Source: Streptomyces erythrochromogenes
GTDB lineage: Bacteria; Actinomycetota; Actinomycetes; Streptomycetales; Streptomycetaceae
NCBI RefSeq assembly: GCF_036170895.1
Contig: NZ_CP108036.1
Coordinates: 5,201,501-5,265,500, forward strand
Reading direction: 5' to 3'
Length of the DNA stretch: 64,000 bases
Within the stretch, counting starts at the first letter, position 1, and each line of letters starts with the position of its first letter. Made by a program: the position numbers and the translations under genes. This document shows positions 27,767-55,038 of this stretch, piece after piece. A model generated the notes under the pieces. The model was not told the origin of the DNA, searched no databases, and saw only the letters and a list, made by a program, of their open reading frames with translations.

Positions 27767-27776
27767 CCTCCGTCTG

Positions 27777-27850
27777 TGCGCCGCCAGGGACTCGAACCCC
27801 GGACCCGCTGATTAAGAGTCAGCTGCTCTAACCAACTGAGCTAGCGGCGC
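27777..27850 (-). tRNA. tRNA-Lys (CTT), copy 1
   Basis: 74 nt on the minus strand, no encoded CCA. All arms fold: acceptor GCGCCGC/GCGGCGC, D-arm GCTC/GAGC, anticodon loop CTCTTAA with anticodon CTT (reads AAG), T-arm CGGGG-TTCGAGT-CCCTG, discriminator A. Identical to the genes at 37007-37080 and 48411-48484. The sequence GCTTGCTGAC just upstream is shared with copy 3. Confidence 0.97.
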
Positions 27851-37006: not shown

Positions 37007-37080
37007 GCGCCGCTAGCTCAGTTGGTTAGAGCAGCTGACTCTTAATCAGCGGGTCCGGGGTTCGAGTCCCTGGCGGCGCA
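37007..37080 (+). tRNA. tRNA-Lys (CTT), copy 2
   Basis: Plus strand, 74 nt, anticodon CTT at 37041-37043, identical in sequence to copies 1 and 3 but in opposite orientation. No CCA is encoded. Confidence 0.97.
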
Positions 37081-37166
37081 CCTGTCCTTCGGGCGGTTTC
37101 CGGTTCACCGGGAACCGCCCGCAGTGTTTTCCGGCCCGGACCGGCCCCGCCGGGCCCGGCGCAGTC

Positions 37167-48403: not shown

Positions 48404-48410
48404 CCGTCTG

Positions 48411-48484
48411 TGCGCCGCCAGGGACTCGAACCCCGGACCCGCTGATTAAGAGTCAGCTGCTCTAACCAACTGAGCTAGCGGCGC
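48411..48484 (-). tRNA. tRNA-Lys (CTT), copy 3
   Basis: Minus strand, 74 nt, same sequence as copies 1 and 2. With copy 1 it shares flanks TCCGTCTG on one side and GCTTGCTGAC on the other, so ~90 bp are identical between two loci 20.6 kb apart in direct orientation. Confidence 0.97.
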
Positions 48485-50951: not shown

Positions 50952-52301
50952 CTACGGCCGCCAGGACACCCGGTGCTCCGCCAGGTGCGCCAGGACCGAG
51001 TGGTTCGCCTCCCAGCCGTCCGGGAACTTCACCGTCACGCCCAGCTGCACCGGCTCCGTCGACGGATGGTCGTCCAGCAGCTCCGCTATGCCCGCCCGGG
51101 CCACCACCACGCAGGCGTGCCGGTGCCGCGAGGCCAGCACGCACAGCCGGCCCGTCTCCAGGTGGAAGGCCGTCGCGTCCGGGCGCCCCGACAGCGGGTG
51201 CAGCACCACCGTGAGGTCGTACTCGCGGCCCTGCAGCCGGTTCGCCGTGTCCACCGTGACGCCGGAGACCCCGAGCGAGGCCAGCGCCGCCCGGACCGCG
51301 GCCGCCTGGTCGCGGTGGGCCGTGCCGACCGCGATCCGGTCGGCCGTCAGTGCCACCGGGCCCGAGGTCTGCTCGTCGGAGGTCACCGCACCGCGGTCCA
51401 GGGCCCGGCGCACCACCAGGGCCACCGCGCCGACCGCCTCCGGGTCGGTGCGCGGCGTGTGCCGCGCGGGCAGCTCCAGCAGGCCCCAGCCCGCCTCGGC
51501 GGCCTCGTCCAGCACCCGGTCCGGGCCCGACCCGTCCGAGGGCACCCCGTACGAGAGCTTCCGGTCGCCCGGACCCGTACCGCTGCGGAACTGCGTGTAC
51601 GGGTAGAACGCGCGGGAGACCAGCGGCGCCGCCGTCGCCGGGAGCCGCCAGGACACCGGCAACCGGTGCTGCGGCAGCTGCGGGTTGTGCGCGAGCAGCG
51701 TGCTCACCGCCGACGCCGACGGGTCGTAGGACAGCCCCGCCCACTGCTCCGCGCCGACCACGCTGAACGGGTCCAGCTGGCCCGGGTCGCCCACGAACAG
51801 CGCCCGCTCGAAGAGCCCGGCCACGGCCAGCAGCGCGTCGGAGCGCATCTGGTACGCCTCGTCGACGATGGCGTGCTGCCACGGCTCGACGTCCTTCACG
51901 AAGGCCCACTTCGCCGCCGTGGAGATGGTGATCGGCAGCTCCGCGAGGTCCCCCGGCTTGGCCGAGAGGGTCACCGACGGCAGTTCCCGCAGCGCCGGAT
52001 CGTAGGAGTCCCCCTCACTGCTGTGCAGCCGGCCGACCTTCAGCTCCGGATCCTTGTCGGCCAGCCGCAGCACCAGGTCGTCGACCTGAGCGTTCGTCTG
52101 CGCCACCACCATCAGCCGGCGCCCCGCCGCGGCCAGCTCCCGGGACGCGCGGACGACGAGCGTGGACTTGCCGGCCCCCGGCGGGGAGTCGACGACGACA
52201 CCCCGCTCGGTGCCGTGCAGGGTGTCGTGCAGGATCGCGGCGGTCGCCCGGGCGGCCGCGGCACCCGGGTCGAAGGCGGCGGGCGCGGACACAGGAGTCA
52301 C
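50952..52301 (-). CDS. UPF1/DNA2-type superfamily 1 helicase
   Basis: 449 residues from GTG 52301. The SF1 motif series is complete: Walker A SPPGAGKST (39-47), motif Ia AQTNAQVDDL, motif II VDEAY (146-150, DEAx not DEAD), motif III GDPGQLDPF (171-179), motif IV LPVSWRLP (214-221), motif V VTVDTANRLQGREYDLTVV and motif VI LASRHRHACVVVAR. The order and DEAx/GDPxQL signatures match the UPF1/DNA2 branch (SF1B). The family translocates 5'-3' on single-stranded nucleic acid. The start overlaps the stop of the upstream gene by 4 nt. With the Fe-S nuclease two genes upstream, this forms a split Dna2-like set. Confidence 0.88.
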   Translation of the reverse strand: MTPVSAPAAFDPGAAAARATAAILHDTLHGTERGVVVDSPPGAGKSTLVVRASRELAAAGRRLMVVAQTNAQVDDLVLRLADKDPELKVGRLHSSEGDSYDPALRELPSVTLSAKPGDLAELPITISTAAKWAFVKDVEPWQHAIVDEAYQMRSDALLAVAGLFERALFVGDPGQLDPFSVVGAEQWAGLSYDPSASAVSTLLAHNPQLPQHRLPVSWRLPATAAPLVSRAFYPYTQFRSGTGPGDRKLSYGVPSDGSGPDRVLDEAAEAGWGLLELPARHTPRTDPEAVGAVALVVRRALDRGAVTSDEQTSGPVALTADRIAVGTAHRDQAAAVRAALASLGVSGVTVDTANRLQGREYDLTVVLHPLSGRPDATAFHLETGRLCVLASRHRHACVVVARAGIAELLDDHPSTEPVQLGVTVKFPDGWEANHSVLAHLAEHRVSWRP

Positions 52302-53881
52302 AGGATGTCCTCGTCGGTGACGGCATCGGGAAGGTGGACGGCGGCCCCGGACCCCGGCGGGCCGCCATGGGTCCACGGCGTCTGCTCCGGGTCCGGGAGC
52401 TTCGGGCCGCCGCGCGCGTCGTGCTCGAAGAGCGTCCAGCACACGCGGTCGCCCTCCTCCGGCACGGAACCCGGCTCCGGGTCCCGGCCGCGCCCCATCT
52501 TGTCGAGGAGCCGCAGCACCACCTGCCCGCCCTCCTCGAAACGGACGAACTGCGCGCTCTGCGGTCGCCCGTCCAGCGACCGGTACACCTTCGTGCCGGC
52601 GCCGTCCGCGAGCTGCGGCCGGTCCTCCGTGGACACCGTCACCAGCGGCCGCGGACTCGGCCGCTTCGACTCCGTCCACTCCATCACCACCTCGGTGACC
52701 TCGCCCGCGAACGCCTCGCCCGACAGCCGCCGCCCCGCCATGACCAGCGGATCGTCCAGCGCCTCCTGCGCGTCCAGCCGTACCTGCTCCGTCTCCCGCG
52801 TGGCCAGCTTCTGCGCCGCGGTCACCGCGTCGTCGCGGCGCGGCTGCGGCGGCTCGCCCGCCCGTACCCGGTCCCGGTGCCCGGTGTACGACCAGCGGTC
52901 GCGCGTCCAGCGCTCCTCCGCCCGCTCGCCCGGCGGCAGCGCGCGGACCAGGTCGATCGCCTCCCACGTCGCCCACCAGGTGCTCGACATCTGGTTCACG
53001 ACCAGTCGGCGCACCGCCCGCTCGGCCGTGCGCACCTCGCGGTCGTCGTCCCCGGACCCGGCCGCCAGGGCCGCGCGCGCCGCGTCGTAGCGGGCGATGG
53101 CCGGCGCCAGCAGCTTGTTGTCGAAGGCCGGATCGGTCGCCGGGCCGGCCGGCGGGCACAGCAACTGGCCGTGCTCGTCACGGCCCAGCTCCGCACGAAG
53201 GGCCGCCTCGGCCCCCGACCCGCCCGGCGGCGGGGCGATCCACGCCATGAGCGCGCCCAGGTGCTGGTCCTCCAGATTGCTCTGGCCCGTCGCCCAGTGC
53301 CGGGACAGCAGGTCCGTCGCCGACAGCAGCATCGAGGACCCGGGCACCCGAGCCCGCTCGCCGAGGTGCGTGAACCAGCGGCCCAGCAACGGCACCCTCG
53401 ACGGCGCCGGATAGGGATTGTCCGGATCCTCCTCCGCGGTGCGCCGGAAGCGCATCGACCGCCCCAGCAGGCGTACGTACTCGATGCCCGCCCGGCTCGG
53501 CACGATCAGCTGCGGGGCGTCCACGCACAGCTCGGTCTCCACCTTGACCCGCTTGCCCGTCTCCGGGTCGGTCTCGCTGCGCTCGGCCGGCTCCACGTCG
53601 TCGGCGTACGCGTCGATGTGCGCCAGCACGTGGACCGCCAGGTCCGCCAGGAAAGCCCAGCGCAGGTCCCGGTCGCGGGGCTGGGGTATCACGAAGACCC
53701 GCGGCTCGTTCGGATCGGTGCCGACCAGCGCGCCCAGCGGGGCTCCGGCCTCACCGGCCGTGGTCAGCGGCACGAAGACGAGCGGCTTGTCGCTCAGGTG
53801 GCGGTGGCGCACCGTCGCGAGCGGCTGGGCGCGGCCGGCGCGGACGGCCTCCAGCCGGGCCAGGGTGCTCAGCAGGGGCAT
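52298..53881 (-). CDS. Unknown protein linking nuclease and helicase genes (527 aa)
   Basis: 527 residues from ATG 53881. I recognise no domain. The N-terminal half contains PLVFVPLTTAGEAGAPLGALVGTD, VFVIPQPRDRDLRWAFLADLAVHVLAHIDAYADD and VDAPQLIVPSRAGIEYVRLLGRSMRFRRT. The middle has a helical, Trp-rich stretch (NQMSSTWWATWEAIDLVRAL). The C-terminal part looks like a small beta domain (GTKVYRSLDGRPQSAQFVRFEEGGQVVLRLLDKMGRG) ending in an acidic tail. No membrane segment or metal-binding cluster. It overlaps the nuclease gene by 13 nt and the helicase gene by 4 nt, so it is made in step with both and is probably a third subunit. Confidence 0.85.
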   Translation of the reverse strand: MPLLSTLARLEAVRAGRAQPLATVRHRHLSDKPLVFVPLTTAGEAGAPLGALVGTDPNEPRVFVIPQPRDRDLRWAFLADLAVHVLAHIDAYADDVEPAERSETDPETGKRVKVETELCVDAPQLIVPSRAGIEYVRLLGRSMRFRRTAEEDPDNPYPAPSRVPLLGRWFTHLGERARVPGSSMLLSATDLLSRHWATGQSNLEDQHLGALMAWIAPPPGGSGAEAALRAELGRDEHGQLLCPPAGPATDPAFDNKLLAPAIARYDAARAALAAGSGDDDREVRTAERAVRRLVVNQMSSTWWATWEAIDLVRALPPGERAEERWTRDRWSYTGHRDRVRAGEPPQPRRDDAVTAAQKLATRETEQVRLDAQEALDDPLVMAGRRLSGEAFAGEVTEVVMEWTESKRPSPRPLVTVSTEDRPQLADGAGTKVYRSLDGRPQSAQFVRFEEGGQVVLRLLDKMGRGRDPEPGSVPEEGDRVCWTLFEHDARGGPKLPDPEQTPWTHGGPPGSGAAVHLPDAVTDEDIL

Positions 53882-55038
53882 TCGGGGGTCTCCGGGACGT
53901 GCGGACGGGGAAGGGCGGCGGCCGGCTCCAGCGCCTCGGCGCGCAGCCGGGCCGCGCGGTGCAGGGCGGCGGCGGTGGGGTCCTCGGCGCAGCCGGCGCC
54001 GGCGGCCGCCGCGAGGGCCTCCTCGACGGTGGTCAGCGCGCCCAGCTCGCCCCGTACGGACCGGCCCAGAGCCGTCACCTCGTCGGCGGCGCGGGCCCGC
54101 TCCCGGCAGTGGAAGGCCAGCTCGCAGGCGGCCAGGCACTCGGGCGCGTAGGCGGCGTCCACCGCGGACACCGCCTCGGCCAGCTCCTCGGCGGTCCGCT
54201 CCGGGTCGAAGCTGAGCCCCTCGGGCAGCGCGGCGGCCAGCTCCTCGACCCGCGTCAGCCGGTCCAGCTGGCGGCGGGTCACCGAGCGCTCGCGTCGGAT
54301 GTCGACGGGGGCGGCGGTCGGCAGGTTGGAGAAGTCCTTCGGGCAGACCAGCAGCACGGTGTGCCCGACCTCGGCGCCGGCCAGCTTCCCGGCGATCCGC
54401 TCCAGGGCCAGGACGTAGACGGCGGCCTGGCGGGCCGCCGCGCCCACCTTCGCCGCGTCCGCGGCCGCGTCGATCATGGGGAACGACTTGATCTCCACCA
54501 CGGTCCAGCGGCCGTCGGGGTGCACGACGACGGCGTCCGGCTCCAGGTACGCCGGGGTGCCGGCCACCTCCAGGGCCAGCATCGGGTGGTCCAGCAGGGT
54601 CCAGTCCTTCGCCGAGGTGGCCTCGCGCAGGGCGAGGGCGGTCCGGGCGGCGCGGCCCTCCGGCCCGGCGGCCGTCAGGTCGGGGACCAGGGCGCCGGCC
54701 CCGGGCGGCTCGGCGGCCGTGTCGAGGTGCGCGTGCACCAGCCGCAGCAGCTCGGCCCCGCCGTCGCCCTTGACCTTCGCCTCGAAGGAGTTCCCGCGGA
54801 CGATGGCGAACTGCGACTGACCGAAGGCGGCGGGCGAGCCGAGGGCCGTGGCGAGGGCGTTCTTGTCCACACCGGCGCCGTCGAGCAGTGCGCGTCTGCC
54901 GCAGCCGGGGTTGGCGGCGAGGGCCGCGAGCGCCCGGGCGTCGAGCGGGCGGGGCGGCACGGAGGGGCCTCGCAGGCCGGCGAGCCGCTGCCGCAGCGTG
55001 GTCGGCTGCGCGGGGCTGCTGGGCGGGTAAGAGCTCAC
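53869..55038 (-). CDS. Cas4/RecB-like PD-(D/E)XK nuclease with Fe-S cysteines
   Basis: 389 residues from GTG 55038 (the frame extends to 55200 but the extra N-terminus is not conserved-looking). Nuclease motifs: E86 in RGNSFE, D168 in LEPDAVVV, E182-x-K184 in VVEIKSFP and Q204/Y208 in RQAAVYVL, i.e. the RecB-family D-ExK-Q-Y order. Four cysteines are placed as in Cas4, AddB and Dna2 nucleases: C46 before the core, then C301-x3-C305-x5-C311 after it, suggesting a 4Fe-4S cluster. Such proteins cut single-stranded DNA ends. It is the first gene of the three-gene overlapping operon, divergent from the histidine phosphatase. Confidence 0.85.
   Translation of the reverse strand: MSSYPPSSPAQPTTLRQRLAGLRGPSVPPRPLDARALAALAANPGCGRRALLDGAGVDKNALATALGSPAAFGQSQFAIVRGNSFEAKVKGDGGAELLRLVHAHLDTAAEPPGAGALVPDLTAAGPEGRAARTALALREATSAKDWTLLDHPMLALEVAGTPAYLEPDAVVVHPDGRWTVVEIKSFPMIDAAADAAKVGAAARQAAVYVLALERIAGKLAGAEVGHTVLLVCPKDFSNLPTAAPVDIRRERSVTRRQLDRLTRVEELAAALPEGLSFDPERTAEELAEAVSAVDAAYAPECLAACELAFHCRERARAADEVTALGRSVRGELGALTTVEEALAAAAGAGCAEDPTAAALHRAARLRAEALEPAAALPRPHVPETPECPC

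Follow-up and report, generated by a model that had tools for sequence, protein, structure and literature searches.

Eukaryotic Dna2 comprises a nuclease, a barrel on a two-helix stalk and two motor domains, 1A and 2A; the DNA lies in a tunnel that runs through nuclease and motor (PMC4716839). Proteins of the TM0106 family are likewise one chain, in which TIGR03491 and RNase_H_2 (PF13482) are followed by AAA_11/AAA_12 in the examples inspected. Moreover, a Cas4-like nuclease is tied to a helicase in UvrD-Cas4 and COG1205-Cas4, partly in defence contexts (PMC5704561), HamAB (Hachiman) pairs a helicase-sensor with a nuclease-effector (PMC12278908), and nuclease-protease pairs have been acquired repeatedly by unrelated immune systems (PMC12799240).

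The window, that is, the whole stretch of DNA analysed (64,000 nucleotides; bases 5,201,501-5,265,500 of an 8.5-Mb Streptomyces contig, a chromosome), harbours three minus-strand ORFs arranged head to tail, named here NUC, MID and HEL, which are compared below with these systems.

Gene content, motifs and predicted folds of the operon

NUC (55038-53869; GTG start, 389 aa), MID (53881-52298; ATG start, 527 aa) and HEL (52301-50952; GTG start, 449 aa) overlap by 13 nt (NUC-MID) and 4 nt (MID-HEL), as the original prediction had stated and as the ORF coordinates bear out. Among 16 loci in which the three genes are adjacent, and with starts chosen by script, overlaps were found in 13 (NUC-MID) and 12 (MID-HEL); their recurrence in most of these loci thus fits translational coupling. 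No Rfam match was found within the operon.

The residues that the original prediction had assigned to the NUC core and to its Cas4-like cysteines (D168, E182, K184, Q204, C46, C301, C305 and C311) are correctly placed. Across an alignment of 29 NUC sequences, 11 of which are close Streptomyces homologues, C46, C301, C305, C311, D168 and Q204 are invariant (29/29), and E182 and K184 are conserved in at least 90%. The active site D168 ... E182-x-K184 lies at 54487..54537 (minus strand), the first putative Fe-S ligand, C46 in the motif NPGC, at 54901..54903 and the other three, C301-x3-C305-x5-C311, at 54106..54138. The predicted fold resembles the Cas4/AddB nucleases: the top Foldseek match is ACE1, an Argonaute-associated Cas4 protein (E 4.6e-4), and the top VIA match is the Cas4 of 7mi5. 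A core other than PD-(D/E)XK had been named as grounds for abandoning the prediction; the model fold is Cas4/RecB-like. The first helix of NUC is preceded by only 13 residues, and its alignment to 5ean begins at residue 28; no counterpart of the OB domain at the N terminus of Dna2 was assigned. At E 0.001, 2964 of the approximately 8000 proteins scored match NUC, and at E 0.1 neither NCBIfam nor PADLOC-DB 2.0.0 gave a match; two PDB profile matches were discarded, being designed proteins aligned over 29 residues. Judging from sequence and model, NUC would be a PD-(D/E)XK nuclease of the Cas4/AddB/Dna2 type, probably with a 4Fe-4S cluster on the four cysteines.

HEL carries the motifs DEAY, GDPGQLDP and QGREYD, as predicted, together with a Walker A motif, GAGKS. 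The Walker A motif (residues 42-46; 52164..52178, minus strand) is invariant at G42, A43, G44 and K45, and the Walker B motif DEAY (residues 147-150; 51852..51863, minus strand) at D147, E148 and A149, each in 18/18 sequences. The best profile matches are Dna2 (E 1.3e-14), IGHMBP2 (residues 204-610; E 3.3e-13) and UPF1, and the Pfam family AAA_11 matches at E 2.4e-11, while AddA reaches E 6e-4 over 78 residues only. In PADLOC-DB 2.0.0, HEL has partial helicase matches only, such as MkoA and MkoC. The proteins matching HEL at E 0.001 (4701 of approximately 8000 scored) may include helicases at large, and a weak PDB match, 9kwf, was dropped, its source paper dealing with acidophile helicases (PMC12724130). 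HEL is thus classed as a UPF1/Dna2-type SF1 motor (1A, 2A) without a barrel of its own, and would provide both RecA-like motor domains.

MID, the bridging protein, had been called unknown in the original prediction; this stands as far as sequence families are concerned, since Pfam, NCBIfam and PADLOC offered nothing convincing (no NCBIfam or PADLOC match at E 0.1) and no match of its profile to PDB sequences, but its AlphaFold model (pLDDT 86) reveals two recognizable parts. The C-terminal part (residues 349-502; 52376..52837, minus strand) forms a stalk helix and a beta-barrel of the UPF1/Dna2 helicase type, best matched by IGHMBP2 residues 4-159. The N-terminal half (residues 31 to about 250; 53132..53791, minus strand) adopts a DnaQ/RNase-H-like fold, probably without catalytic acids. 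MID has no PF13482 match and no similarity to the TM0106 family by hhalign (E 0.79). Proteins matching MID at E 0.001 number 3171 of approximately 8000 scored. Since the MID barrel corresponds to IGHMBP2 4-159 and HEL to IGHMBP2 204-610, the gene break separates barrel from motor. The C-terminal part of MID would therefore supply the stalk and barrel that IGHMBP2, UPF1 and Dna2 carry in the same chain, and MID and HEL may jointly constitute one UPF1-type helicase, 5'-3' by analogy with its family. The N-terminal half, its catalysis probably lost, may serve as a scaffold linking nuclease and motor, in the slot held by the RNase_H_2 domain in TM0106-family proteins.

Distribution and the core chromosomal site

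Of 197 Actinomycetes genomes searched, 29 have NUC, MID and HEL alike: every Streptomyces (16/16) and 13 genomes of other genera, which span four families; homologues that never co-occur would have spoken against the prediction. Weak extra matches were found for HEL in nine more of the 197 genomes and for NUC in one. Among the 29, HEL is located 36 and 49 kb away from NUC-MID in two genomes, and the genes are on separate contigs in one. The suggested conservation in streptomycetes was confirmed on a larger set of 199 Streptomyces genomes, of which 187 have MID.

The chromosomal copy occupies a shared core site in all eight loci read. Compared with the window, the flank on the NUC side is common to 7/7 other core loci and that on the HEL side to 6/7 (the exception being L126); the NUC-side flank consists of a phosphoglycerate-mutase-like gene and, further out, a response regulator and a sensor kinase (names assigned by eye). 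Sixteen defence markers, all derived from the other loci discussed below, were found in 0/8 core windows and 0/15 non-Streptomyces split windows, and no phage record contains MID. A mobile-island origin of the window's copy was rejected, given the shared flanks and the lack of any such marker in the eight core windows. For the window's copy the role may be either of the two originally proposed, repair or phage defence, with defence less likely than not; extra copies do adjoin defence genes. The near-universal Streptomyces core copy would most likely serve general end processing, that is, repair and the clearing of broken or incoming DNA.

The same observations invite a stricter account, in which the Streptomyces core operon is pure housekeeping repair (end resection, or care of replication forks and chromosome ends), with the copies linked to defence representing a distinct use that arose later. 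The shared site, the near-universality in Streptomyces and the single clade formed by the eight core HEL rows (SH-aLRT 99) agree with it, as does the distribution of the one-chain counterpart TM0106, which is present in 59/197 Actinomycetes genomes but in only 1/29 of those with the split set, versus 58/168 of those without (P=3e-4). This complementarity, however, is non-significant by genus (P=0.43) and was given no weight. Furthermore, the subtype-A copies described below branch outside both the core and the non-Streptomyces copies, and the defence link may therefore be the older state, although the tree was a quick one whose root branches are very long, and the fork in question has SH-aLRT 88. 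Pure housekeeping is an account that we regard as rather unlikely beside the preferred one, in which general end processing in the core coexists with recruitment elsewhere.

Extra copies, the fused form and a proposed mechanism

On two Streptomyces plasmids, NUC-MID-HEL is located directly upstream of, and co-directional with, the Wadjet genes jetABCD (confirmed by PADLOC on one). Directly upstream of NUC on both plasmids, and in several non-Streptomyces loci, is a gene of about 255-290 aa, designated UPX, for which no Pfam, PADLOC (two proteins searched) or convincing PDB match was found. When the 199 Streptomyces genomes were searched for UPX, it turned up at 19 places in 17 of them, and NUC-MID-HEL follows at all 19; as the extra copies were located through this search, the presence of UPX in each is by construction. 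Eighteen further Streptomyces genomes with at least two MID matches stand outside this count, some of them representing one gene in pieces (G112).

Based on the gene that diverges from UPX, the 19 places can be classified into two subtypes: A (13 places), with an SbcD gene, accompanied by SbcC matches in 12; and B (6 places), with a gene for a PD-(D/E)XK nuclease, identified by PADLOC as PprPDDEXK in L093. The markers were derived from L092, L093, L169 and L170; two of these, L092 and L093, themselves belong to the 19 places, so that the neighbour assignment is independent for 15 new places plus two exact terminal-repeat duplicates (L206 and L207).

Downstream of HEL, the neighbours vary. L193 harbours Wadjet I, as on the two plasmids, L093 harbours HmaA-HmaB and L092 an HA-repeat helicase. 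In L191, L194 and L195 a DUF2397 gene directly follows HEL and precedes a JetC2-like gene (Wadjet II-like): the JetC2 model matches this 1669-aa gene piecewise along its length in all three genomes, each of which has a better JetC2 elsewhere. The label 'Wadjet III' was rejected for this cluster, as the JetC3 model found nothing, and no paper naming DUF2397 together with Wadjet was found in open-licence PMC text. The genes after HEL in L201 and L204 we tentatively take to be type III-like, on weak matches and the hallmarks of such systems. The gene or system that follows HEL is named in four of the 17 new regions and tentatively in two, the remainder having other or unassigned genes there. In two genomes the locus is present in both terminal inverted repeats, approximately 24-25 kb from the chromosome ends; Wadjet occurs in 42% of Actinobacteria genomes and is enriched toward Streptomyces chromosome ends (PMC10482375).

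The NUC sequences of the two subtypes differ at the active site. The E-x-K motif is intact at 13/13 subtype-A places and on both plasmids, whereas catalytic residues are substituted at 6/6 subtype-B places: K184 is replaced by R in all six, E182 by L in four (L093, L201, L202 and L204) and D168 by Q in two (L203 and L205). The three clustered cysteines are retained in all 21 sequences (the 19 places and the two plasmids), and subtype B forms one clade (SH-aLRT 100) adjacent to the core clade (94). The simplest reading of these sequences is that in subtype B the neighbouring PD-(D/E)XK nuclease took over cutting, with NUC kept as a structural, cluster-bearing part.

These copies also bear on a second account, in which the module would provide defence autonomously, HEL and MID sensing damaged or invading DNA and releasing NUC to degrade DNA, the neighbours being fellow passengers of defence islands. 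Such a system would resemble HamAB, and the extra copies are patchy (17/199 Streptomyces), on plasmids and in terminal inverted repeats, like many defence genes; yet NUC could hardly be the sole effector in subtype B, where its catalytic residues are substituted in 6/6, and the presence of MID in 187/199 Streptomyces, at a chromosomal site shared by 8/8 loci with common flanks, also argues against it. We regard autonomy as improbable and prefer recruitment of an end-processing module by partner systems.

A distant fused form, in which HEL is preceded by a single 868-966-aa protein that combines NUC with a MID-like part, was found at 37 named loci across Actinomycetota and on two Rhodococcus plasmids. 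HEL immediately follows the fusion gene in the same orientation at 36/37 loci (one HEL being cut by the contig end), while the last locus stops at the fusion gene. Homology of the first part to NUC is clear (hhalign E 2.3e-9), while the second half reaches E 0.041 against MID, to which it is assigned by position only. These loci, retrieved with two short peptide patterns, are relatives of at least 47% identity and do not amount to a census; the fused form is present in 1/246 genomes of the phylum and 2/61 of one family. A type ISP restriction-modification gene abuts 12 of the 37 loci and a type III Mod/Res pair nine, and restriction genes therefore stand beside 21/37 fused loci versus 0/23 split windows, core and non-Streptomyces together (P=2.5e-6, relatedness ignored). 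The markers were taken from the fused loci, so that this control covers those families only, and two genomes are represented twice among its 23 windows. The restriction genes were named by PADLOC or Pfam in L130, L131, L139, L145 and L155 and by similarity to these in the others.

From the gene content, motifs, predicted folds, distribution and neighbourhoods observed, we infer complex formation, an Fe-S cluster, polarity, activity and a biological role along the following lines. The product of the operon is probably a machine of the Dna2 type that processes DNA ends and is divided among three polypeptides, and end processing itself is quite probably the activity of NUC-MID-HEL. Such a machine would be loaded at free DNA ends; MID-HEL would translocate and pull one strand through, and NUC, or a replacement nuclease, would cut that strand, so that DNA is cleared once a break has formed. 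For the core copy, breaks may arise from damage, replication trouble or incoming DNA; for the extra copies, the partner system would make the break and the module would degrade the cut invader, the UPX-bearing copies and the fused form having been recruited beside systems that cut or draw in DNA, namely Wadjet, Hma, restriction of types III and ISP, and SbcCD. Whether the link to these partners is specific is evenly balanced in our judgement. The full reading is put forward tentatively, as one that falls somewhat short of probable: a portable 'Dna2 in three pieces' (with UPX), repeatedly recruited by unrelated actinobacterial systems, namely Wadjet I, Wadjet II-like, Hma, type III/ISP restriction and SbcCD to destroy cut or captured DNA, with one branch in which NUC is disabled beside a next-door PD-(D/E)XK nuclease and one copy domesticated as a near-universal Streptomyces core machine.

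UPF1, IGHMBP2 and Senataxin act on RNA or RNA-DNA hybrids, the match of HEL to IGHMBP2 and UPF1 is almost as good as that to Dna2, and the MID barrel is structurally closer to IGHMBP2 and Setx than to Dna2, but a role in clearing R-loops or RNA primers is very improbable, as the partner NUC is by its predicted fold a Cas4/AddB-type DNA nuclease and the nameable recurrent neighbours act on DNA.

Comparison with known systems

The motor of AddAB, AdnAB and RecBCD is UvrD-like SF1A, unlike HEL, which is nearest to Dna2, IGHMBP2 and UPF1. Cas4 and ACE1 share the fold and cysteine arrangement of NUC, which differs in being accompanied by MID and HEL. In UvrD-Cas4 and COG1205-Cas4 the helicases are UvrD-like SF1 or SF2 (YprA-like; PMC5704561, in whose main text the words Actinobacteria and Streptomyces are absent), whereas the operon has a UPF1-type motor with the barrel on a third protein. 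The nuclease-protease pairs are alike in that a portable enzyme unit joins several unrelated defence systems and unlike in consisting of an MBL-fold nuclease and a protease (PMC12799240, whose main text contains neither Wadjet nor Hma). PADLOC-DB 2.0.0 holds no full-length system-model match for NUC, MID, HEL, one fused protein or two UPX proteins, open-licence PMC text gave no earlier description of NUC-MID-HEL among the matches listed, and the words Cas4 and Dna2 are absent from the extract of an actinobacterial defence-system survey (PMC10482375). The pattern of recruitment by defence systems thus appears undescribed in the literature searched. It suggests a second step for several defence systems, the clearance of DNA after cutting by Wadjet, Hma or restriction, and would bring a function within reach for three un- or vaguely annotated genes of nearly every Streptomyces examined, a genus whose barriers against incoming DNA cause difficulties in practice.

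TM0106-family proteins, to which six long proteins of other Actinomycetes matched by HEL belong (1140-1267 aa), share with the operon the order of nuclease, RNase-H-like part and motor (NUC-MID-HEL), and their motor aligns strongly with HEL (hhalign E 6.8e-24), while NUC aligns weakly (E 0.067). They differ in being a fused chain whose RNase_H_2 part has an intact-looking DxE motif (by eye), and NUC and MID fall below the TIGR03491 family-model cut-off (no NCBIfam match at E 0.1). Since both Dna2 and TM0106 are single chains, and given this cut-off, the operon is filed as a member of neither.

The likeness to Dna2 (PDB 5eaw/5ean) extends to the order of PD-(D/E)XK nuclease, stalk with barrel and UPF1-type motor, to a match, by structure or by profile, for each of the three parts, and to a Cas4-like PD-(D/E)XK nuclease with four Fe-S cysteines, putative here. 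The operon differs in comprising three genes, with NUC and HEL as separate chains in the loci read, and in having a DnaQ/RNase-H-like domain between nuclease and stalk. The original view of a split Dna2-like nuclease/helicase is supported by MID, whose stalk and barrel are the very parts missing from the short HEL, and the architecture is very likely that of a Dna2-type machine in pieces. If so, it would represent a bacterial Dna2-type machine in which nuclease, bridge and motor can be removed individually, unlike the one-chain Dna2.

UPX and terminal copies

Extra copies of the split Dna2-like operon were traced through UPX, a fourth gene encoding a protein of ~255–290 amino acids with a conserved core (RRDE-x-RS ... 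ARPYY). UPX (2318–3160 in L169; relatives in loci L092, L093, L098–L100, L102, L170, L171 and L191–L207) precedes the Cas4/RecB-like nuclease gene NUC in each of these loci, and was not found adjoining the Streptomyces core copies that were read. In two Streptomyces chromosomes, both terminal inverted repeats carry an extra copy ~25 kb from each chromosome end (L199/L206 and L200/L207), the duplicates being 100% identical across >19 kb.

In three Streptomyces genomes (G495:C44, G506:C2 and G659:C3), a second, stronger JetC2/DUF2397 Wadjet cluster was found on a different contig from the divergent one adjoining the NUC-MID-HEL module, where MID is the bridging protein and HEL the helicase.

A 21-kb span of the window contains three tRNA-Lys(CTT) genes (27776–27850, 37007–37082 and 48410–48484) that are identical in sequence and differ in their flanks, each with a terminator-like hairpin recognized by eye. 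These look like ordinary duplicates rather than the ends of one inserted element.

Separated helicase genes

In one family (L094–L097; genomes G095 and G196), HEL has shifted to a position 36–49 kb from NUC-MID; as it is kept despite this separation, the functional link between them may outlive the operon. Separately, a HEL-like remnant interrupted by three stop codons (L121; G107:C17:23037–23699), perhaps a decayed split copy, occurs in a genome that also has a protein of the one-chain TM0106 family.

The fused form beside restriction-modification genes

In 21 of the 37 loci, restriction-modification genes of type ISP or type III lie immediately next to those for the fused NUC-MID-like protein and its helicase (L091, 9157–11844, and L130–L166), which makes the pair look like a fixed accessory to ATP-dependent restriction. 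At another fused-form locus (L113, 7902–17593), an HNH-like gene, recognized by eye, lies before it and more genes follow, including a DUF6361-like gene and ZacB; the whole is possibly one larger defence operon.
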